Shown piece by piece: positions 4,609 through 33,012 of a stretch of DNA of 39,715 bases. Position 1 is the stretch's first letter; the number at the start of each line of letters is the position of its first letter. A program made the position numbers and the translations under genes. The notes below the pieces were generated by a model. That model was given only the letters and a program-made list of their open reading frames with translations. It ran no database searches and had not been told where the DNA came from. The stretch is from Alphaproteobacteria bacterium (GTDB taxonomy: Bacteria; Pseudomonadota; Alphaproteobacteria; Rhizobiales; Aestuariivirgaceae). Where the stretch lies: positions 1 through 39,715 of the forward strand of contig JAGWTZ010000029.1 in the NCBI GenBank assembly GCA_028868695.1, written 5' to 3'.

Positions 4609-6113
4609 GGGGCGAGACGCAGGGCCGTGTAAGAAAGTGGCGGCAGGGTGAGGCTGAGCAGGCCTTCTGCCAATCGGGCGCCCTGCCCGGCCACGGGCTT
4701 CACGGCCTCGGGCTGCTGCAGGCTGTTGGCGGCCTTGATGCCGTGGCCGGCCAGTTCATGGTGTTCGGCGAGGCGAAGTGCTGCGAAACCGTCCAGCCGC
4801 ACCGAGACAGGCATTTGGCCCTCGCCGCGGTTGACCAGGAACAGGGCCACTCCGCCATCGTCATGCAAGACCCCCGCGCAATCCACCTGCGGCACCTGAT
4901 CGGCGATGTCGGCCTGATAGGCGCCACAGGAAACCTGCAAATCCAGTGCCTTGCCGCGGCCAAGCCGCGAGGCCAGGGCGAAGGGATGAAAAATGGTTTG
5001 CCGCCAGGCCGCGCCGCCAGGCTCGGTCATGATCGGGGCGATCACGTTGACGAGCTGGGCCAGGCAGGCAATCTTCACCACGTCAGCATGACGAATGAAG
5101 CTGTTGATGATCAGCGACACCAGCAGGGCATCTTCGAAATTGTAAATGTCCTCCAGCAGCCGCGGCGCAACAGGCCAGCCCTGCTCGCCACGCAGGATGG
5201 GCTTGTCAGCCTCGCGGCTGTGATACCAGACATTCCACTCATCGAAGGAAATGGTGACATCACGCTTTGAGCGCTTCTTGGCCTTCACGTAGCGGATGGT
5301 GGCGGCAATGGTTTCGATATAGCGCTCCAGCCTGATGTTCTGGGCGAGATAGTTGCCGAGGTTGCCCGCGCGGTTGTTGAAATACATGTGCAGGGAAATA
5401 TGGCTGGCCTGCTCATAAGTGTGTTCCAGCACCGTGGCTTCCCATTGCGGATAGCTGGGCATTTCAGGGTTGGATGAGCCGCAGACCACCAGCTCCAGCG
5501 AAGGGTCGAAGGCCAGCATGGCCTTTGCGGTTTCATGGGCGAGCTTGCCATATTCCTCTGCCGATTTCTGGCCGACTTGCCAGGGTCCATCCATCTCATT
5601 GCCGAGGCACCAGAGCCTGACGTTCCAAGGCTCGGCGCGGCCATTGGCGCGGCGCAGGTCACTCCAGGCGCTTCCGCCTGGGTGGTTGCAATATTCGAGG
5701 AAGGCGCGCGCCGCATCCAGCCCGCGCGAGCCGAGGTTCACGGCCAGCATCATTTCCGTGCCCACGGCCTCGCACCACTGTGCAAATTCGTGGATGCCCA
5801 CGGTGTTGGGCTCGGCCGTGTGCCAGGCGAGATCAAGCCGCCGTGGCCGCTTTTCCACCGGGCCAATGCCGTCTTCCCAATTATAGGCCGAGACGAAGTT
5901 GCCGCCGGGATATCGCACGACCGGCACGCTCAACTGCTGCACCAGTGAAATCACATCACGGCGAAAGCCATTGGCATCGGCGCTGGGGTGGCCCGGCTCA
6001 TGGATGCCGGTGTAAACCGCGCGGCCCAGATGCTCGATGAATGAGCCATAAAGGCGCGGGTCAATCGGGGCGATCACCCGGTCTTTGTCGAGCTTGATGG
6101 AAGCGTGAGTCAT
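4605..6113 (-). CDS. Alpha-L-arabinofuranosidase, glycoside hydrolase family 51
   Basis: The 502-residue protein is a retaining GH51 enzyme that removes terminal L-arabinofuranosyl groups from arabinan or arabinoxylan oligosaccharides. The catalytic (beta/alpha)8 barrel starts with DPRLYGSFIEHLGRAVYTGI and VVRYPGGNFVSAYNWEDGIGP. The acid/base Glu173 lies in WCLGNEMDGPWQ and the nucleophile Glu292 in SFDEWNVWYHS. A C-terminal beta-domain (about 390-502) ends PLSYTALRLAP. There is no signal peptide, so it is probably cytoplasmic and acts on imported oligosaccharides. No sugar transporter or other arabinose gene adjoins it, so it may be an isolated acquisition. Its start is 61 bases from a CtrA-type box and divergent from the FecR-like gene. 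Confidence 0.94.
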   Translation of the reverse strand: MTHASIKLDKDRVIAPIDPRLYGSFIEHLGRAVYTGIHEPGHPSADANGFRRDVISLVQQLSVPVVRYPGGNFVSAYNWEDGIGPVEKRPRRLDLAWHTAEPNTVGIHEFAQWCEAVGTEMMLAVNLGSRGLDAARAFLEYCNHPGGSAWSDLRRANGRAEPWNVRLWCLGNEMDGPWQVGQKSAEEYGKLAHETAKAMLAFDPSLELVVCGSSNPEMPSYPQWEATVLEHTYEQASHISLHMYFNNRAGNLGNYLAQNIRLERYIETIAATIRYVKAKKRSKRDVTISFDEWNVWYHSREADKPILRGEQGWPVAPRLLEDIYNFEDALLVSLIINSFIRHADVVKIACLAQLVNVIAPIMTEPGGAAWRQTIFHPFALASRLGRGKALDLQVSCGAYQADIADQVPQVDCAGVLHDDGGVALFLVNRGEGQMPVSVRLDGFAALRLAEHHELAGHGIKAANSLQQPEAVKPVAGQGARLAEGLLSLTLPPLSYTALRLAP

Positions 6114-6217: not shown

Positions 6218-6946
6218 ATGGTGGCGTTGGCAAAAGTTTCCCGGTTCGTTGCATGTGTTTTGGTGGGCTGCATGGCTGTGCAGCCCGCGCTGGCCGAGAC
6301 AGCGAGCCTGCAAGGGCTTTCCGGCAAGGTGCTCATTTCACACGGCCAAGGCTTCGCGGCGGCGGAGGCTGGCGCCATTCTTGCCGGCGAGCAGATTCTC
6401 ACCGGACCGGATGGGCATGCGCTGGTGCGCTTCCCAGCTTGCACCGTGACCTTGAAAGGTGCCGCCCTCTACACCGTGCCAGCCAAAACACCCTGCACGC
6501 CGGGTCAAGATATCGCCATGGCTGGCGTGTTCGCCGTCACCCCCGCATCAGTTGGCGCAACCCAGTTCGCCCAGCTTGACCAATTGACCTACAGGGCGCG
6601 CGATCTGGAAAATGAAGCGCGGCTTGCCAATGACCAGCCGCGGCTTGATTGCCTGGCCGGGAAAGAAGCGGAGATCAAGGCGCTGCGCCATTATCTGTTG
6701 CGCAACCCGGGCGTTGAGGAGAATGAGCGCATTGCATTCATGACGCAGGACCTTGAAACCTGCCAGGCCAGCCTGCCCGCTGCGCCGGTTCCAGCGCCTG
6801 CGCCGGTGGCCACGCCGCCAGTTGTGGCCGCCGCTCCGGCTGTGGACGGCACTGGCCTGTTGATTGGTGGCGGGCTTGCCGTGGCTGGCCTTGCCGCTGG
6901 CGCCTATGCGCTGCTGGGCAACAAGGGCGGCATCAGCAAGAACTGA
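6218..6946 (+). CDS. Exported protein with a FecR-like N-terminal domain and a C-terminal membrane helix
   Basis: The 242-residue protein begins with a clear signal peptide (MVALAKVSRFVACVLVGCMAVQPALA, cleavage after ALA). Next comes a FecR-like segment (LSGKVLISHGQGFAAA...AGEQILTGPDGHALVRFPACTVTLKG), a charged region that may be helical (about residues 110-180), a Pro/Ala-rich linker (AAPVPAPAPVATPP) and a final hydrophobic glycine/alanine helix at about 212-234. Four cysteines in the mature part may pair. ATG 6218 is preferred because GAGGGG lies 4 bases before it; an in-frame ATG 12 codons earlier would put extra residues before the signal peptide. Function is unknown; FecR-like periplasmic modules often occur in envelope or polysaccharide-associated proteins. 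The CtrA box suggests cell-cycle-linked expression. Confidence 0.68.
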   Translation: MVALAKVSRFVACVLVGCMAVQPALAETASLQGLSGKVLISHGQGFAAAEAGAILAGEQILTGPDGHALVRFPACTVTLKGAALYTVPAKTPCTPGQDIAMAGVFAVTPASVGATQFAQLDQLTYRARDLENEARLANDQPRLDCLAGKEAEIKALRHYLLRNPGVEENERIAFMTQDLETCQASLPAAPVPAPAPVATPPVVAAAPAVDGTGLLIGGGLAVAGLAAGAYALLGNKGGISKN

Positions 6947-7110
6947 CGCCTGCCCACTTGCTGGCCGGCGGCACACCTGCGGCCAAAGCCAGGCACAAAT
7001 TCATGCGGCAACTTGCGGCTGCGGATTTTGCACCGCTACAAATATCAATGAGCAACTTGGTGCAGGGCGCGGCGCCTGATATGGAGTTGGCCCACCCCGG
7101 AGTCCCCCCA

Positions 7111-8013
7111 ATGCAATCTGCCAGCCTTTCCCGCGCGCATTTTCTGCTGGCGCTGGCTGTTGTCGCCATTTGGGGCAGCAACTTTGTCGTGATCAAGCAA
7201 GGCCTGACACATCTGCCGCCACTGTTTTTCGCGGCCCTTCGCTTCACGCTGGCCTTTGCGCCGGCAGCCCTGTTCGTGAAGCGGCCCAAGGTGAGCTGGG
7301 CCAATCTCATCGGCTATGGCCTGCTGCTGGGCGTTGGGCAGTTCGGCCTGCTGTTTGTGGCACTCAAGGGCCACATCACGCCGGGCCTCGCCTCGCTTGT
7401 GATCCAGATGCAAGTGTTCTTCACCATTGGCCTTGCGGTGGCGCGGGCGGGCGAAAGGCTGAAGGCCTATCAATTGGCGGCGCTGGCGCTGGCCGCCGCC
7501 GGGCTCGGGCTGATCATCGTTTACGCTGGCGGCAGCGCCACGCCGCTGGGCCTTGGCCTTGTGCTGCTGGCCGCCCTCTCATGGGCCTTCGCCAACATGC
7601 TGATGCGTGGTGCTGGCCGCATTGACATGCTGGCCTATGTCGTTTGGGCCAGCATCTTTTCCGTGCCGCCGCTGCTGGCGCTTTCATTCACATTGGAAGG
7701 CTGGCAGGCGGATTGGCAGGGCCTTCTCGCCGCAGACACGCTGACCTGGGCTGCCGTAATCTGGCAGGCGGTGGCCAACACCATGTTCGGCTTTGGCGCG
7801 TGGGGCTGGCTGCTGGCGCGCTATCCCACCGCAACGGTGACACCCATGGCCTTGCTGGTGCCCTTCTTCGGCATGGCGAGTTCGGCCCTGCTGCTGGGCG
7901 AGCCGATGCAAGGCTGGAAGCTGATCGCCTCGGCGCTGGTGATCGGCGGGCTTGCGCTCAACCTGCTGTGGCCACGCTTGGCCAATCCGCCATCTGCCCC
8001 CGCGACCAGGTGA
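7111..8013 (+). CDS. eamA: EamA-family drug/metabolite exporter
   Basis: The 300-residue protein has ten predicted membrane helices in two EamA repeats, the fold of the DMT superfamily. Segments such as VVAIWGSNFVVIKQGL, RPKVSWANLIGYGLLLG, GLASLVIQMQVFFTIG and ATVTPMALLVPFFGMASSALLLGEP line up well with E. coli EamA (YdeD), an exporter of O-acetylserine and cysteine. Substrate here is an inference. The open frame extends 51 codons upstream, but homology begins at MQSASLSRAHFLLALAVV and GGAG lies 8 bases before this ATG. The last 56 bases overlap the end of the convergent miaA gene, so the two coding 3' ends are interleaved. Confidence 0.85.
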   Translation: MQSASLSRAHFLLALAVVAIWGSNFVVIKQGLTHLPPLFFAALRFTLAFAPAALFVKRPKVSWANLIGYGLLLGVGQFGLLFVALKGHITPGLASLVIQMQVFFTIGLAVARAGERLKAYQLAALALAAAGLGLIIVYAGGSATPLGLGLVLLAALSWAFANMLMRGAGRIDMLAYVVWASIFSVPPLLALSFTLEGWQADWQGLLAADTLTWAAVIWQAVANTMFGFGAWGWLLARYPTATVTPMALLVPFFGMASSALLLGEPMQGWKLIASALVIGGLALNLLWPRLANPPSAPATR

Positions 8014-9817: not shown

Positions 9818-10558
9818 ATGTCATTGAAGATCATCGGCGCCGGCTATGGGCGCACCGGAACCATGTCCACTTTCACGGCGCTGAAGGAGCTGGGTTTCCC
9901 CTGCTACCACATGGTCGAAGTGATCATGAACAAGGCCAACAAGACGCATCTCGATTTCTGGCGCAAGGTGGCCAATGACCCGCCTGGCATGCAGGAAAAT
10001 TGGGAATCTGTGTTCTCGGGCTACACCGCCGCGGTTGACAATCCGGCCTGTTGCGTGTGGCGCGAGCTGATGAGAGCCTATCCGGACGCCAAGGTGCTCT
10101 TGACGCTGCATCCGCGCGGGCCGGAAGCCTGGTATGAAAGCACGATCGACACGATCTATTTCACCGAGAACCGCTGGCAGTTCATGGTGCTCAAGATTTT
10201 CACGCCCTTCGGCCGCAAGTTCGGCGACATGTCGCGCAAGCTGATCTGGCAGCGGATGCTGAAGGGCACGATGGATGACAAGGCCCGCGCCATTGCTCAA
10301 TACAAGCAGCACATCGAAGACGTGAAAGCCGCGGTTCCGGCCGACCGCCTGCTGGTGTTCACGGTGGACCAGGGCTGGGGCCCGTTGTGCAAGTTCCTCG
10401 GCGTGCCTGCCCCCGCCACGCCGTTTCCCAACGTCAATGACCGCGCGGAGATCCAGAAGGTGATCGCCGACATGTCCAAGGGGGCCTATGTCATCCTTGC
10501 CGGGCTTGTCGTTGCGGCCCTGCTGGTGCTCTATCTTGCCATGCGGCTTCTTGGCTGA
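9818..10558 (+). CDS. Sulfotransferase-family-like protein with a C-terminal membrane anchor
   Basis: The 246-residue protein begins [28 protein letters not shown], a P-loop-like segment typical of the small family usually annotated as sulfotransferase or NAD-dependent epimerase-like. Other shared features are [28 protein letters not shown] (the region that would bind the 3'-phosphate of PAPS), [13 protein letters not shown] and [13 protein letters not shown]. The final 22 residues (about 223-244) form a hydrophobic helix followed only by a short tail, so it may be tail-anchored in the inner membrane. A paralogue without the helix lies at 24703-25326. Substrate is unknown. GGGAGG lies 8 bases upstream of the ATG. 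Confidence 0.78.
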
Positions 10559-24442: not shown

Positions 24443-24702
24443 CCAATAAGACCCCAAACTTTAGTGATCACTCCGCCTCGCAAAACCGCTGATTTCGGTG
24501 GGTTTGCCGTGACAGCACGAAACTTAAGCCGCCCGTGGCATCATGGCTTTCAGCTTGTCGCCAAGTGCGCGCTTTGGCAAGACCCCTGCTCCACCGAGGT
24601 TCGACGGGTTGGCATTGCGAACCAAATGCTGCAAAGAAGCACCTCAGATTCCGCTTGCCACTTACTGTAGCTGCGATAGCGTTATGCTTGCAGGGGATGC
24701 TA

Positions 24703-25326
24703 ATGACACTTCGGGTGATTGGAACTGGCTTTGGTCGCACGGGCACGGACTCCATGCGCGAGGCCTTGAACATTCTGGGCTTTGGGTCTTGCCATCACAT
24801 GCATGAGGTGATTGCCAATGAACACCAGAAGCAGCTTTGGCGCGCGCTGGTGCAGGGTGCAAAGCCTGATTGGGAGAAGCTGTTTGAGGGGTATCACGCC
24901 TGCGTGGATTGGCCTTCGGCGCATTATTGGCGCGAGTTGATCGTTGCCCATCCGCAAGCCAAGGTGATCCTCACGCATCGCAGCGCCGAAAGCTGGTGGG
25001 CCAGTTTTGAGAAAACCATTCTGGTGGGCCTCAACAAGAGCACCGATCCGCTGTCCCTCGGCCTGGCGCTGATCCGCGACAAGGTGTTCGGCGGCAGGAT
25101 GAATGACAAGGCCCATGCCATCGCCTGCTATGAGGCCAATGTGAAGGCCGTGCGCGAGACTGTTCCGGCAGCGCGCCTTCTGGTGCATGAGCTGGGCGAT
25201 GGCTGGGAGCCGCTCTGCGCCCATCTTGGCGTGGCCGTGCCCGATGTTGCCTATCCCTCCAGCAACAATGCCGAGGCCTTCAGCGCACGGCACCTGCAAG
25301 GCCCGCAAGCCGGCCATTTGACATAG
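24703..25326 (+). CDS. Sulfotransferase-family-like protein (paralogue of the gene at 9818)
   Basis: The 207-residue protein starts MTLRVIGTGFGRTGTDSMRE and keeps the same landmarks as the protein at 9818-10558: LGFGSCHHMHEV, WRELIVAHPQAKVILTHRSAESWW, NDKAHAIACYEANVKAVRETVP and GDGWEPLCAHLGV. It lacks the C-terminal membrane helix of that paralogue. AGGGG ends 6 bases before ATG 24703, which supports this start over the longer open frame. Members of this group are usually annotated as sulfotransferases on the basis of the P-loop-like GRTGT; substrate and even activity are not established. Confidence 0.78.
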   Translation: MTLRVIGTGFGRTGTDSMREALNILGFGSCHHMHEVIANEHQKQLWRALVQGAKPDWEKLFEGYHACVDWPSAHYWRELIVAHPQAKVILTHRSAESWWASFEKTILVGLNKSTDPLSLGLALIRDKVFGGRMNDKAHAIACYEANVKAVRETVPAARLLVHELGDGWEPLCAHLGVAVPDVAYPSSNNAEAFSARHLQGPQAGHLT

Positions 25327-28792: not shown

Positions 28793-29365
28793 ATGCGCCT
28801 TGCCCTCATCCTGACCGGCCTCACCTTGGCCAGCGCCGCGCGCGCCGATGATGCCGCCTTGCAGGCGCAGGTGTTCGGCCATGCGCTGGGCAAGGACGCG
28901 GGCTTTGCCTGCTTCAGCCGGGTTTATGACAAGCCGCATCTTGCTTCGCACCCCAGGCAGAATGTCACGTCCATCATGCTGCTGGTGAAGGGCGTGACGG
29001 AAGACACGGTTCACTACAATGCCAGCGTGGATTTCCGCTTCCGCAAGAGCGGCAAGCATTTCCAGGCTTACGGCGAGTGCCCCTCGGTTGCCGTGGAAGG
29101 CGGCAAGCCGGGGGAACTTCATTGCGGCATTGATTGCGATGGCGGCACCATCAATGTGAACCTGAAGGATGCGGACACGCTTCTCGTCAAGCTGCCGGAT
29201 GGCATCGCGGTGAGTGACCCAGCCGACGCCAATGACCAAGGCCCGTCCATGGGCCGCTTCGGCAGCGACGACAAGGTGTTCAAGCTGACGCGCGTTTCCG
29301 GCAGCAATTGCCTGCCGCTGGCGGCCGAGGATGCGGACAAGGCCGCCCTCAAGGCGCTGAAATGA
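28793..29365 (+). CDS. Exported protein of unknown function
   Basis: The 190-residue protein has a short signal peptide (MRLALILTGLTLASAARADD, cleavage near ARA). The mature part holds four cysteines (ACFSRVY, GECPSVAV, LHCGIDCDGG), likely paired in the periplasm, and another in SNCLPL. Segments such as DFRFRKSGKHFQAYGEC and GGTINVNLKDADTLLVKLPDGI suggest a beta-rich fold; I do not recognise the family. AAGGAGG lies 5 bases before the ATG. Its TGA stop overlaps the ATG of the next gene (ATGA at 29362-29365), so the two are translationally coupled. Confidence 0.75.
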   Translation: MRLALILTGLTLASAARADDAALQAQVFGHALGKDAGFACFSRVYDKPHLASHPRQNVTSIMLLVKGVTEDTVHYNASVDFRFRKSGKHFQAYGECPSVAVEGGKPGELHCGIDCDGGTINVNLKDADTLLVKLPDGIAVSDPADANDQGPSMGRFGSDDKVFKLTRVSGSNCLPLAAEDADKAALKALK

Positions 29366-29799
29366 AATTCCCCAGCCGCCGCAGTTTGGTGGCCGCTGCC
29401 CTGGCCGCCACTGGCGCAAGCGCAGCCAAGGCCGACGACGCACCTGCCAAGCTGCGCGTGGTCTATCATCTGGCGGATCTTGAGAAGGTGAATTTCGTTC
29501 TCTCCAACATGCAAAACCATCTCAAGGGCGGCGGCGGGCCGGAGAAGGTGACGCTGGCGCTGGTGGTGCATGGCCCTGCCCTGGCCGCCTTCAGGCGAAT
29601 GGATGGCAATGTGGCGGTGAGCGGCCCGGTGGCGGCACTTCTCGCAGCTGGCGTGGGCTTTCATGCCTGCGGCAACACGCTCAAAGGCATGAAGATCAGT
29701 GTTGGCGACTTGCTGGAAGGCTTTGCCGAAGTGCCCGAAGGCGGCGTGGTGCGCCTCGCAGCACTGCAGGGACAAGGCTGGGCCTATTTGCGGCCGTGA
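29362..29799 (+). CDS. Exported DsrE-family-like protein with a Tat-like signal
   Basis: The 145-residue protein starts MKFPSRRSLVAAALAATGAS, with twin arginines before a hydrophobic stretch and an alanine-rich cleavage region (SAAKADD), resembling a Tat signal. The mature part (LRVVYHLADLEKVNFVLSNMQNHLKGG, VTLALVVHGPALAAF, GVGFHACGNTLKGM, EVPEGGVVRLAALQGQGWAYLRP) matches periplasmic DsrE/DsrF-like proteins of sulfur-relay ancestry. The single conserved Cys lies in FHACGNTL. It overlaps the preceding gene by four bases, so the two form a coupled pair. Confidence 0.85.
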   Translation: MKFPSRRSLVAAALAATGASAAKADDAPAKLRVVYHLADLEKVNFVLSNMQNHLKGGGGPEKVTLALVVHGPALAAFRRMDGNVAVSGPVAALLAAGVGFHACGNTLKGMKISVGDLLEGFAEVPEGGVVRLAALQGQGWAYLRP

Positions 29800-29899: not shown

Positions 29900-30745
29900 A
29901 TGACCAGCCTCAACCCAGCCACGCGCCGTGATGCCGCTGCCCTCACCCGGGCGGATGTGGGGCTGTTTGTGCTGGCGGGGTTTGTGATTGCTTCACTGAA
30001 GGATGTTTCGGCACGTGATGGGCTGCTGGCCTTCCTCGATGGGCTGGCGCGGCAGAACCTGTTCTTCTGCTTTGCGGTTTATGTGGCGGGGTGGCGGCTG
30101 TTGCGCAGCCCGGCCCGCGCCGCCTCGGGGTTTGACATTGGGCTCCTCATCATCGCGGCGCTGCTGTTTGCGCTGGCGGCCTATCTCGGCCAGCCGCTGG
30201 CGGCGGGGCTGGTGCTCACGGTGCTGGTGCTGGCCTTCGCCACGCAGCGGCCCGAGCCTGAATTCCGCTCAGCCCTGATCGTGATGGGGGCGATGGCGGT
30301 GAATTGTTTCTGGGGGCCGCTGATGTTCCAGACCTTCACGGACCAGATCATCGGCATCGACGTGACCGCGCTGCGCATGATCAATGCCGTGCTGCGGCCC
30401 GACATCACCTCAAACGGCGCCACCTTCCGCACCGGCGAAGGCTTCTCGATCATCGTCATTGGCGCCTGTTCGGTGTTCAACAGCGCGTCAGTGGCCGTGC
30501 TGGCCGCCACGGCGATTTCGCAACGCCTCAAGACGTGGATGGGCAAGCGCGACATCGCCGCCATGGCCGCCGTGCTGCTGGTGATGCTGGCGATGAATTC
30601 AGGCCGGCTGGCCATTCTGGGCTGGAGCCGCGACAACTATCTCTTCTGGCACAATGGGCCAGGCGTTGTCTGGTTCGGCCTTGGCGAGACAGCGGTGATC
30701 GCCATTGTGGCCACGCTCTGCGCCAGATGGGCAGCCCGCGCGTGA
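29900..30745 (+). CDS. Exosortase/archaeosortase-family membrane protein
   Basis: The 281-residue protein has about seven to eight membrane helices. Its C-terminal half shows the exosortase layout: Cys190 in IGACSVFNS (family form ACSG), Arg236 in MNSGRLAI (family form N-x-x-R) and His251 in FWHNGPGVVWFG (family form H-x-x-x-G). The region before it (TALRMINAVLRPDITSNGATFRTGEGFSIIVI) matches the lead-in to the catalytic Cys. Exosortases are thought to cleave C-terminal sorting signals and pass the protein on to the envelope. Gly after CS is replaced by Val, so it sits off the main branch. Its TGA overlaps the GTG of the next gene (GTGA), giving tight coupling. Four microproteins with shared C-termini follow and are its likely substrates. 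Confidence 0.78.
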   Translation: MTSLNPATRRDAAALTRADVGLFVLAGFVIASLKDVSARDGLLAFLDGLARQNLFFCFAVYVAGWRLLRSPARAASGFDIGLLIIAALLFALAAYLGQPLAAGLVLTVLVLAFATQRPEPEFRSALIVMGAMAVNCFWGPLMFQTFTDQIIGIDVTALRMINAVLRPDITSNGATFRTGEGFSIIVIGACSVFNSASVAVLAATAISQRLKTWMGKRDIAAMAAVLLVMLAMNSGRLAILGWSRDNYLFWHNGPGVVWFGLGETAVIAIVATLCARWAARA

Positions 30746-31278
30746 CAGTTCCGCCTGCCTTGCGGCCGCGGCTGATGCTGGCCGCACTTGCTGCCGTGCT
30801 GCTGGCGCTGAAGCTGTTGGCGCCGGGCGAAATTGAGCAAATTCCCGCCGACACCCTGCTGCAGCGGCTTGGCGACCAATTGGCGGCACGCGGCACAGGG
30901 CCGGTGCAGTTCTCGCAGCGCGCGGATTTGGCAGGCTCCCACCAGCTCACCTTCCGCCTTCCGGATTGCCCATCGCCCTTGCGCGTGGTGGCCGTTTCCA
31001 CGCAGGAAGACCTTTCCTCGGCGGCAAGGATCGCAACACCAGCAGGCCTCGCCGCGCCGGAGATTGCGGTCTTTGCCCAGGGTGAGGAACATGGAATGGG
31101 CGGGCGGCTGGCGATGCGGCTGAGCGCTGTTAAAAACTATCTCGGGCTCAAGTTCGGGCTCACTGACATTGCCCCATCCGGCACCTTGCTTGCGGTCGTC
31201 CATGATGCCTCATGCGTGGGCTACAGGGCTGTGGATTGGCCTGCGTTGTGGTCAGCCATTGGCCTGCAGAGCAGTTAA
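30742..31278 (+). CDS. Membrane-anchored protein coupled to the exosortase gene
   Basis: The 178-residue protein starts at GTG 30742, which overlaps the exosortase stop codon. One N-terminal membrane helix (about 11-27) precedes a periplasmic domain with two cysteines (Cys76 in LPDCPSPL and Cys158 in HDASCVGY). Exosortase genes are commonly followed by an EpsI-like protein with one anchor and a periplasmic domain. Position and topology fit, but I cannot align it with EpsI confidently. It is most likely an accessory factor of the exosortase. The longer frame upstream lies in the exosortase gene and is a shadow. Confidence 0.6.
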   Translation: MTVPPALRPRLMLAALAAVLLALKLLAPGEIEQIPADTLLQRLGDQLAARGTGPVQFSQRADLAGSHQLTFRLPDCPSPLRVVAVSTQEDLSSAARIATPAGLAAPEIAVFAQGEEHGMGGRLAMRLSAVKNYLGLKFGLTDIAPSGTLLAVVHDASCVGYRAVDWPALWSAIGLQSS

Positions 31279-31295
31279 ATATTGCAGCTTTGTCA

Positions 31296-31304
31296 TGTTA
31301 TGCT
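31296..31304 (+). promoter_or_regulatory. Possible extended -10 promoter element for the microprotein array
   Basis: TGTTATGCT contains the extended -10 form TGnTATnnT, 39 bases before the first microprotein start. The best -35 candidate is poor. If active, it would allow the four microproteins to be expressed separately from the exosortase. Confidence 0.3.
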
Positions 31305-31343
31305 AGCCTCACCCTGTTTCGGGGATTCAATCGGGAGACTACA

Positions 31344-31532
31344 ATGAAGTTTTTGACGGCAATTTCGGGCGCCATGCTGGTTCTGGGCAGCACAACAGCG
31401 GCATGGGCCGGAACGGTGCCAACGCCGGGACCTACGCCAGGGCCGGTGCTGGGAATGGTGGCGGGGCCATGGGGCCTGGTTGCGGCCGGGGTTGGCTATT
31501 GCGCCTACCGGGCACTGAAAACTCGGCGCTGA
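31344..31532 (+). CDS. Microprotein 1 of the exosortase-linked array
   Basis: The 62-residue secreted peptide has a signal peptide (MKFLTAISGAMLVLGSTTAA, cleavage after AWA), a Pro-rich linker (VPTPGPTPGP) and a 28-residue C-terminus: VLGMVAGPWGLVAAGVGY then CAYRALKTRR. The end has the three parts of an exosortase sorting signal: Pro motif, hydrophobic helix, basic tail. The linker is longer than in the other three copies and it is the most diverged member, with Cys53 where the others have Gly. GGGAG lies 8 bases before the ATG. It is too short to be a catalytic protein. Confidence 0.75.
   Translation: MKFLTAISGAMLVLGSTTAAWAGTVPTPGPTPGPVLGMVAGPWGLVAAGVGYCAYRALKTRR
31446..31532 (+). repeat. 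C-terminal core unit 1 of four (87 bp)
   Basis: The last 28 codons and stop of microprotein 1 align without gaps to units at 31640-31726, 31841-31927 and 32041-32127. Most differences among units 2-4 are in third codon positions, whereas unit 1 has several amino-acid changes. Confidence 0.8.
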
Positions 31533-31561
31533 TTTTCATTTGCTGATGGGAGGAAACTGAC

Positions 31562-31726
31562 ATGAGATCATTTCTTGCATTTGGTTTTCTGACGCTCAGC
31601 GCCACGGCCGCGATGGCGCAAGTGGCCACGCCCGGCCCGGTGATTGGCGTGGTGGCCGGGCCTTGGGGCGTGGTGGCGATGGGCCTAGGCTATGGCGCCT
31701 ACCGCGCCTACAAGGCGTTGCGCTGA
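31562..31726 (+). CDS. Microprotein 2 of the exosortase-linked array
   Basis: The 54-residue peptide has a signal peptide (MRSFLAFGFLTLSATAAMA, cleavage after AMA), then QVATPGP and the 28-residue core VIGVVAGPWGVVAMGLGY with GAYRAYKALR. Only about seven residues separate the predicted signal cleavage site from the core. GGGAGG lies 8 bases before the ATG. It is 29 bases behind microprotein 1, on the same strand and probably in the same transcript. The basic ending RAYKALR is identical in microproteins 2, 3 and 4. Confidence 0.75.
   Translation: MRSFLAFGFLTLSATAAMAQVATPGPVIGVVAGPWGVVAMGLGYGAYRAYKALR
31640..31726 (+). repeat. C-terminal core unit 2 of four (87 bp)
   Basis: The unit aligns without gaps to the other three. 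Compared with unit 3, differences are mostly third-position or conservative (ATT/GTT, GTG/GTT, GTG/CTG, GGC/GGT, GCG/GCA), which indicates selection on the peptide. Confidence 0.8.
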
Positions 31727-31762
31727 CTTGAAATTGCCTGCGGGCAAGTTGGGGAGGACGGA

Positions 31763-31927
31763 ATGAGACTATTGCTGACACTTGCGTTCACGGTTTCGGG
31801 GGCATCGCTGGCTTTTGCGCTCGCGCCATCGCCCGCACCCGTGGTTGGCGTTGTGGCCGGGCCTTGGGGCCTGGTGGCGGCGGGCATCGGCTATGGTGCC
31901 TACCGCGCCTACAAGGCATTGCGCTGA
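31763..31927 (+). CDS. Microprotein 3 of the exosortase-linked array
   Basis: The 54-residue peptide has a signal peptide (MRLLLTLAFTVSGASLAFA, cleavage after AFA), then LAPSPAP and the core VVGVVAGPWGLVAAGIGY with GAYRAYKALR. The linker here reads PSPAP rather than PGP, so the Pro-x-Pro pattern, not the Gly, is shared by all four. GGGGAGG lies 5 bases before the ATG. It is 36 bases behind microprotein 2. Confidence 0.75.
   Translation: MRLLLTLAFTVSGASLAFALAPSPAPVVGVVAGPWGLVAAGIGYGAYRAYKALR
31841..31927 (+). repeat. C-terminal core unit 3 of four (87 bp)
   Basis: Aligns without gaps to the other units. The GPWG codons (GGG CCT TGG GGC) are identical in units 2, 3 and 4 and nearly so in unit 1. 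Confidence 0.8.
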
Positions 31928-31959
31928 ACTGAAGGTCTTCTGAGATTGGGGAGTTGGAC

Positions 31960-32127
31960 ATGAGAGCGATTATTGCACTTGCGGCCCTGGTGGCCGGAAC
32001 AACTGTTGCCTTGGCCATCCCGGCGCCCACACCGGGGCCGGTGGTTGGCGTGGTGGCCGGGCCTTGGGGCCTTGTTGCCTCTGGCCTCGCCTACGGGGCC
32101 TATCGCGCCTACAAGGCACTGCGCTGA
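31960..32127 (+). CDS. Microprotein 4 of the exosortase-linked array
   Basis: The 55-residue peptide has a signal peptide (MRAIIALAALVAGTTVALA, cleavage after ALA), then IPAPTPGP and the core VVGVVAGPWGLVASGLAY with GAYRAYKALR. GGGGAG lies 7 bases before the ATG. It is the last copy: 69 bases later the fatty-acid-hydroxylase-type gene begins on the same strand, possibly in the same transcript. I see no clear terminator between them. Confidence 0.75.
   Translation: MRAIIALAALVAGTTVALAIPAPTPGPVVGVVAGPWGLVASGLAYGAYRAYKALR
32041..32127 (+). repeat. C-terminal core unit 4 of four (87 bp)
   Basis: Aligns without gaps to units 1-3; most changes against unit 3 are synonymous (for example CTG/CTT, GTG/GTT, TAT/TAC, CTG/TTG). 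Confidence 0.8.
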
Positions 32128-32196
32128 CGCATTCCATCTCCTGCGCCACCGGGCCCTTGCCATATTTGGCCTGGCCGTGATGCTGATCGTGTGGTG

Positions 32197-33012
32197 ATGC
32201 TCGACAATTTGGCACAAGCGCTGTCGGCGCATTTCTGGGCGCTGATGGCGCTGGCAGCCATGGCTTTCGCGGCCATAGATCTGGTCAACAGGGGGGCCAC
32301 TCCGGCCACCACGCTGGCGCGCCAGTGGCTGTTGCATGGCGCCCTCTATGGCTTGGGCCTTGTGCTGGTGCTCAATCTCCCCATCAGCATGCTGGCGGGT
32401 GCTGCTGCCTCATTCAGGCTGGGCATCGGCCTGCGGGCCTGGGCCGACTTTGGCTTTGCCGGCGATTTCGCGCTGTGGGTGTTTTTCTACACTCTGACGC
32501 AATATCTTTTCCATCTTTCGTTGCACCGCGTCCGTTTCCTGTGGTCGCTGCACCGGGTGCATCATCTTGATGAGATCGTCGATTCCAGCACCACCTTGCG
32601 CCACCACCCTGGGGAATCCCTGGTGGCGCTGCTGGTGTTTTCCACCCTCGCCTTCATTCTGGCACCGCCGATGGCGGCCATTGTGCTCTGGTCCTGCCTC
32701 GAGTTTCTCACCGATTTCTGGACGCATGGCCGCACACCGCTGCCCGATGGGTTGGCGCGCAAGGTTGAAGCTGTGCTGTTCACGCCGCGCCTGCACCGCG
32801 TGCATCACTCCGCCTTTGAACCGCAGACCAACAGCAACTATGGCAATGTGTTCACGGCGTGGGACAGGCTGTTCGGCACTTTCCGCCGCGAGCTGCCGGA
32901 GCGGCTGGGCCTTGATGATGCGGAGGCCTCGGGCGATGCCTCGCGGGATTTCGACAAGCTGCTGCTGGACCCCGTGATGTATCTGCGGCGCAGGCGCGAG
33001 AACAAGGCTTAG
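32197..33012 (+). CDS. Fatty acid hydroxylase / sterol desaturase family protein
   Basis: The 271-residue membrane protein carries the histidine clusters that bind the di-iron centre: H106-x3-H110 (FHLSLH), H119-xx-HH (HRVHH), HH at 136-137 (LRHHPGE) and H200-xx-HH (HRVHH). These lie between about five hydrophobic helices. The family hydroxylates or desaturates lipids such as sterols, carotenoids, fatty acids or sphingolipid-like compounds; the substrate is unknown. Start is ATG 32197, or one of the GTG codons at 32191 and 32194. It follows the microprotein array on the same strand. Its TAG overlaps the stop of the convergent cupin gene by four bases. Confidence 0.87.
   Translation: MLDNLAQALSAHFWALMALAAMAFAAIDLVNRGATPATTLARQWLLHGALYGLGLVLVLNLPISMLAGAAASFRLGIGLRAWADFGFAGDFALWVFFYTLTQYLFHLSLHRVRFLWSLHRVHHLDEIVDSSTTLRHHPGESLVALLVFSTLAFILAPPMAAIVLWSCLEFLTDFWTHGRTPLPDGLARKVEAVLFTPRLHRVHHSAFEPQTNSNYGNVFTAWDRLFGTFRRELPERLGLDDAEASGDASRDFDKLLLDPVMYLRRRRENKA

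Follow-up and report, generated by a model that had tools for sequence, protein, structure and literature searches.

Exosortases and archaeosortases carry a sortase-like set of Cys, Arg and His, and according to passages in two papers their substrates are seemingly left membrane-anchored and the enzymes are perhaps transpeptidases (PMC11980579, PMC4343526). The layout of the PEP-CTERM sorting signal is given in part of an earlier study (PMC1569441). A passage on archaeosortase A reports that pssA adjoins artA and that PssA and PssD are involved in ArtA-dependent maturation (PMC7157517). Even for ArtA, the exact processing site and the lipid moiety are called unclear in a section of a 2025 paper (PMC11980579), and a link between N-acyl amino acid synthases of bacteria and exosortases has been reported, to judge from a title cited in PMC11631085. 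Here we describe an exosortase locus in a 39,715-nucleotide stretch of alphaproteobacterial DNA (Aestuariivirgaceae; assembly GCA_028868695.1, contig JAGWTZ010000029.1), the whole of which is referred to as the window. The locus lies within positions 29900–33012, has all its genes on the + strand, and combines an exosortase-like enzyme, a membrane partner, four micro-proteins with a GPWG tail and a fatty-acid-hydroxylase-superfamily membrane enzyme. We consider it likely to be a dedicated exosortase module, in which one enzyme serves its own micro-substrates.

The locus resembles the PEP-CTERM/EpsH system in three respects. First, its leading gene (29900–30745, 281 residues) encodes an exosortase-like, probably polytopic membrane protein with C190, R236 and H251, together with N233. 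Second, a small partner gene (30727–31278) follows directly downstream, as EpsI follows EpsH in Methylobacillus. Third, the candidate substrates, micro-proteins p1 (31344–31532, 62 residues), p2 (31562–31726, 54 residues), p3 (31763–31927, 54 residues) and p4 (31960–32127, 55 residues), have an N-terminal signal, a C-terminal motif, a helix and a basic tail. It differs from that system in that the motif is PxP-GPWG instead of PEP, there is almost no cargo, and four paralogous substrates are encoded beside the enzyme. Moreover, the partner falls short of the cut-off of every family in NCBIfam and Pfam, a hydroxylase stands in the operon, and no exopolysaccharide genes were noticed adjacent to the locus on reading the open reading frames of the window, where only some flanking genes were scanned. 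An earlier note on this DNA had described the exosortase, the partner and the four short secreted peptides, with Cys190, Arg236 and His251 in this order, and all of them are present as described; it left out the hydroxylase gene (32191–33012), which is the last of the operon and carries it to 33012. The intergenic gaps downstream of the partner, through the hydroxylase gene, measure 29–65 nucleotides.

Other described systems share single features with the locus. Archaeosortase A of haloarchaea, which acts on PGF-CTERM, belongs to the same superfamily by its catalytic residues and is likewise linked to lipid-synthesis genes (pssA beside artA, in Methanosarcina), while the present locus is bacterial, its linked lipid enzyme is a hydroxylase and not PssA or PssD, and its substrates are micro-proteins. 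The JDVT-CTERM signal relies on an invariant Cys. Its enzyme MrtJ forms a dedicated two-gene system, likewise a single sorting enzyme with its single target encoded alongside (PMC11980579); however, MrtJ is a CPBP (CAAX-like) protease, whereas we found an exosortase and a Pro motif. Among named exosortase branches, Cyanoexosortase A (TIGR03763) is the top-scoring one for the related enzyme of genome G441 (3.3e-7), but at 30 bits against a cut-off of 150, and it does not match the window enzyme.

Each micro-protein consists of an N-terminal hydrophobic signal ending in AxA, 4–9 residues, PxP, an AGPWG helix and a YGAYRAYK-like basic tail, where the signal peptide and the AxA site were judged by hydropathy and by eye. 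The three-part CTERM plan of motif, helix and basic cluster behind an N-terminal signal, which the earlier note had claimed as Pro-x-Pro, a hydrophobic GPWG stretch and a basic tail, was seen in all four window peptides. The estimate of about 5–12 residues before the core in the earlier note is here refined to 4–9 residues, counted from the presumed signal-peptidase site (AxA) to the last PxP, in the six peptides of the window and of a second genome of the same genus (G016). Sizeable, varied cargo was not seen in these six peptides; it is present and varied in a wider group of PxP tails described below. None of the four window peptides scored above the cut-off of any family in NCBIfam or Pfam. 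Moreover, seven GPWG-type peptides matched no NCBIfam CTERM model at cut-off (PID_CTERM and PFE_CTERM reached 12.5–13.5 bits against 24–26), in keeping with the claim that PxPV-GPWG is not among the known CTERM signals. NCBIfam has no name for the GPWG tail; the main exosortase survey (Haft 2012) lies outside the literature covered, and an earlier mention of the tail may exist.

The four micro-proteins look like real genes, because a purine-rich Shine-Dalgarno-like stretch precedes every start, synonymous divergence (dS) of the core exceeds nonsynonymous divergence (dN) in every one of the 15 pairs that can be formed from the four peptides of the window and the two of G016 (with dS saturated in four of the 15), and G016 has its two homologues in the same place. 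The pair p3–p4 gave a dS of 0.69 and a dN of 0.07, and the weakest pair, p2–p3, gave 0.25 and 0.11.

We ran a GPWG profile on 397 genomes of the order, 150 relatives, 120 relatives of G441 and 385 genomes of the class, sets that overlap. Convincing matches came only from the own genome of the window (G000, four peptides), from G016 (two) and from G441, a member of another family (one). In the 397-genome search, 89 genomes had a row at an expectation value (E) of 0.1 or lower, with G441 at 6.1e-7; the rows other than G000 and G441 (E 0.0004–0.1) were taken as chance, three such loci having been inspected. In both G016 and G441 the peptides adjoin a related exosortase and partner. The G441 peptide gene lies upstream of the exosortase, so that the gene order has changed yet the adjacency is kept. 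Across these samples GPWG occurs only in genomes that carry this exosortase branch, and there only in its neighbourhood. GPWG peptides widespread in genomes without an exosortase, which the earlier note had suggested looking for, were sought over these samples and the reverse was seen, namely exclusive pairing with one exosortase clade. Co-occurrence, adjacency and the likeness of the motifs now give good support, from sequence and not from biochemistry, to the link between enzyme and substrate proposed there, and the micro-proteins are probably substrates of this exosortase. As a separate observation, an AMP-binding, acyl-CoA-synthetase-like gene (recognized by eye; L037 3041–4678) lies just upstream of the G441 peptide gene on the same strand; it may be a lipid link or may be there by chance.

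We gathered 35 exosortase loci, from the window, G016, G441, G051 and G106, together with 12 from the class search and 18 from the order search. At E ≤ 0.001 the exosortase profile matched 19 of the 397 genomes of the order, and at E ≤ 1e-5 it matched 12 of the 385 of the class. In a tree of the 35 sequences the exosortases of the window, G016 and G441 group in a single clade (support 99/97), G016 being represented by a C-terminal fragment. C190, R236, H251 and Asn233 are invariant across all 34 full-length aligned exosortases, the window included. A crude hydropathy scan of the window enzyme gave seven strong hydrophobic segments, where the superfamily has about 7–8 spans or more, and its AlphaFold model is poor (predicted local distance difference test score of 40). 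In its own genome this enzyme is the single match to the exosortase signature TIGR04178 at E ≤ 0.01, and related exosortases exceed the signature's cut-off of 23 bits (G051 with 29.8, G798 with 27.7). No named NCBIfam exosortase branch was reached at cut-off by the window or G441 enzyme. TIGR02595, for the PEP motif, matched none of eight genomes at E ≤ 0.01, though the controls gave no match either.

A secreted PxP-tail protein is encoded nearby in 18 of the 35 loci, namely L038, L039, L055 (two proteins), L056, L057, L063, L095, L099, L102, L103, L106, L108, the three GPWG loci and L110–L112. A rule-based scan found 15 short secreted PxP-tail frames within 2 kilobases of an exosortase and none in the 245 kilobases beyond; one of the 15 is probably false, and four come from the window and G016. 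L055 encodes, on opposite strands beside one exosortase, a pair of short secreted proteins (4712–5017 and 6821–7210) that are unlike each other but share a PGPLEGVGLPF tail; this pair is good evidence for a PxP-GLP sorting signal, one that falls short of every NCBIfam cut-off. Tails of the type PxP(I/L/V)xGxGLP occur in L038, L055, L056, L095 and L099, all within an 11-row exosortase clade (96/95). PLP tails with LGQ occur in L039, L102 and L103, whose exosortases form one clade (100/99) with that of L104, where no substrate was found near the exosortase. Tail type tracks exosortase branch only partly, as L057 (GLP tail) and L108 (similar tail) fall outside the 11-row clade. In three genomes, all from one genus, proteins of 215–236 residues ending in IPGPVPG(T/M)S lie about 1.4 kilobases from the exosortase (L110 2933–3580, L111 7066–7713, L112 7080–7790), and that of L110 has a weak match to the choice-of-anchor C family (26.7 bits, with a cut-off of 120). 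The tails of L056 and L099 scored above the cut-off of an LPXTG model, and we took this as a false call.

The G441 tail is intermediate between the GPWG and the PxP(I/L/V)xGxGLP types. By eye it matches PAPIAGVGLP-type tails gaplessly, and PAPLAGAAGPVGLLA of G441 aligns in this way with PAPIAGVGLPYIALA of an exosortase-linked protein in G051. On account of this alignment GPWG is probably a derived branch of a wider, also unnamed alphaproteobacterial class of PxP tails. The "new exosortase system" of the earlier note can be kept as an unannotated variant, with no named NCBIfam branch or CTERM model at cut-off among those proteins of the branch that were scanned and only the general signature TIGR04178 reached, by G441, but GPWG is not an isolated signal. 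The same alignment speaks against the view that the peptides form an independent family of small membrane proteins, such as regulators or antimicrobials, that share the operon and are never processed. In favour of that view, the C-terminal helix is intact and conserved, and the processing proposed below is a prediction; however, the searches placed the peptides solely beside this exosortase branch, and adjacency is kept despite the reordering in G441, and we regard the view as very unlikely.

Several further observations weigh against a dedicated module of exosortase and micro-substrates. The window exosortase stays below the TIGR04178 cut-off, with 17.9 bits in a single-protein scan and 21.5 in the genome search, and the G441 enzyme does so in part, with 19.3 bits as a single protein and 23.1 with its neighbours in the genome search. 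The GPWG genomes known are three, two of them from one genus, and the G016 exosortase is split over two contig ends, with only its C-terminal piece on the contig of the peptides. The remaining 17 of the 35 loci yielded no PxP-tail protein in the vicinity, with some of their flanks cut off by contig ends. A sorting signal almost free of cargo is odd for a sorting system, and identity of the PxP..G motif to G441 is 0.58, below the 0.69 of the wider group.

Conservation is distributed differently in the two sets of tails. Between the six window and G016 peptides and that of G441, identity is 0.49 for the helix and 0.52 for the tail, at an exosortase identity of 31%. At the same 31% exosortase identity, seven wider PxP tails have 0.24 and 0.29, and their conservation is restricted to the motif (0.69 and 0.88). 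The 4–9 residue cargo of the GPWG peptides is not conserved. With exosortase divergence held equal, conservation of helix and tail is roughly double that of the wider group, so that the helix, not the cargo, looks like the selected part, although the six peptides are partly paralogues and the comparison rests on few independent sequences. Either the helix itself is useful, or the enzyme reads it strictly as its only substrate. On the first of these explanations the helix-tail piece would be the product, the peptides being small membrane proteins that act through their GPWG-YGAYRAYK helix, with an exosortase that merely trims or releases them. The identities given and the unconserved cargo favour it; strict recognition of a single substrate family would conserve the helix too, and together with the small, partly paralogous sample this leaves it unlikely in our judgement. 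The choice offered in the earlier note, tiny cargo or core as product, leans towards the core.

Within the stretches fetched, each of the three GPWG loci has the hydroxylase as its next gene, and the other 32 exosortase loci have none. This count is based on a profile built from the three GPWG-locus copies, and some flanks end at contig ends. The copies of the window, G016 and G441 score 92.5, 101.8 and 97.8 bits against PF04116 (gathering score 31), and in the window copy three His boxes (HLSLH, HRVHH, HRVHH) are intact. The best NCBIfam match of all three is OlsE (NF052566), an ornithine-lipid head-group hydroxylase of the same FA_hydroxylase superfamily; at 57.6, 78.6 and 79.9 bits they fall far under its curated equivalog cut-off of 475, and the model does not identify them as OlsE. 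In the literature searched we found no paper joining an exosortase with a fatty acid hydroxylase or sterol desaturase.

The enzyme could be an accidental neighbour, in which case the module would comprise exosortase, partner and peptides only. Such hydroxylases are common, with 160 plasmid records matching at 1e-5, and the G441 copy is closer to plasmid-borne sterol desaturases (BLAST, 145–159 bits) than to the window and G016 copies (115–118 bits), so that it may have joined independently, a further point against a single inherited module. Against accident stand the exclusive occurrence in GPWG loci, the overlap of the hydroxylase ATG with the partner stop in G441 and the gaps of only 63 and 48 nucleotides in the other two loci, and a tree that places the three copies on one side of a branch (92/95, with a warning for long branches). 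We hold accident to be a real possibility but the less probable one. Should G441 have recruited its hydroxylase independently, the fact that the pairing arose more than once would still suggest a function; if the pairing is accidental, the module is smaller.

The partner frame overlaps the exosortase stop, by about 18 nucleotides if its start is 30727, and a GTG some codons further on is an alternative start. The protein has one predicted membrane span, an N-terminal hydrophobic one, and a probable periplasmic domain with conserved C81 and C163. A frame of this size begins near the exosortase stop in all 35 loci, with an offset of -4 in 16 of them. The two Cys columns are occupied in 33 and 34 of 35 partners, where the script chose a wrong frame in L095 and L065 is without the first Cys, and the pair is mostly 73–82 residues apart (range about 67–90; for example L056 6713–7231 and L108 5750–6211). 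None of the partners scanned reached a Pfam or NCBIfam family at cut-off.

For the dedicated module we infer the following course. The micro-proteins would be exported by Sec and cut by signal peptidase after AxA. The remaining product of about 35–40 residues would sit in the inner membrane, with 4–9 periplasmic residues and PxP ahead of the GPWG helix and a basic tail in the cytoplasm. The exosortase, aided by the two-Cys partner, would attack near PxP with Cys190, and cleavage would free the conserved helix-tail piece. The short N-terminal piece would be passed to an acceptor, for which an amine-bearing lipid is, by analogy, the likeliest candidate. The neighbouring hydroxylase would have this acceptor lipid as its likeliest target, in parallel with the lipid enzymes that work for archaeosortase A of haloarchaea; we propose this role tentatively, at somewhat less than even confidence.

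This rare cluster may amount to a minimal apparatus by which tiny lipid-linked peptides are made or anchored. It could also serve ribosomal (lipo)peptide maturation instead of protein sorting, turning 35–40-residue precursors into short Pro-rich peptides on a membrane lipid that the dedicated hydroxylase would have hydroxylated, into a released GPWG helix, or both. We think this rather improbable; if true, an exosortase would have a biosynthetic role, in the production of a peptide of ribosomal origin. The operon is compact (enzyme, partner, substrates of 54–62 residues and an enzyme of lipid-modifying type) and small enough for whole reconstitution and mass spectrometry, and therefore the question of the acceptor is directly testable. 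It also brings to light a broader set of alphaproteobacterial exosortases, likewise unnamed, that come with a two-Cys partner and PxP tails.

Directly upstream of the exosortase gene, positions 29308–29799 encode a secreted DsrE-like protein (20.1 bits against a Pfam cut-off of 22.7), which is not known to be part of the module. Elsewhere in the window, 9818–10558 and 24535–25326 encode two proteins, 14 kilobases apart and similar by eye, with a sulfotransferase-like GxGRTGT P-loop. On the - strand, 4457–4577 matches the Rhizobiales small RNA Atu_C8 in Rfam.

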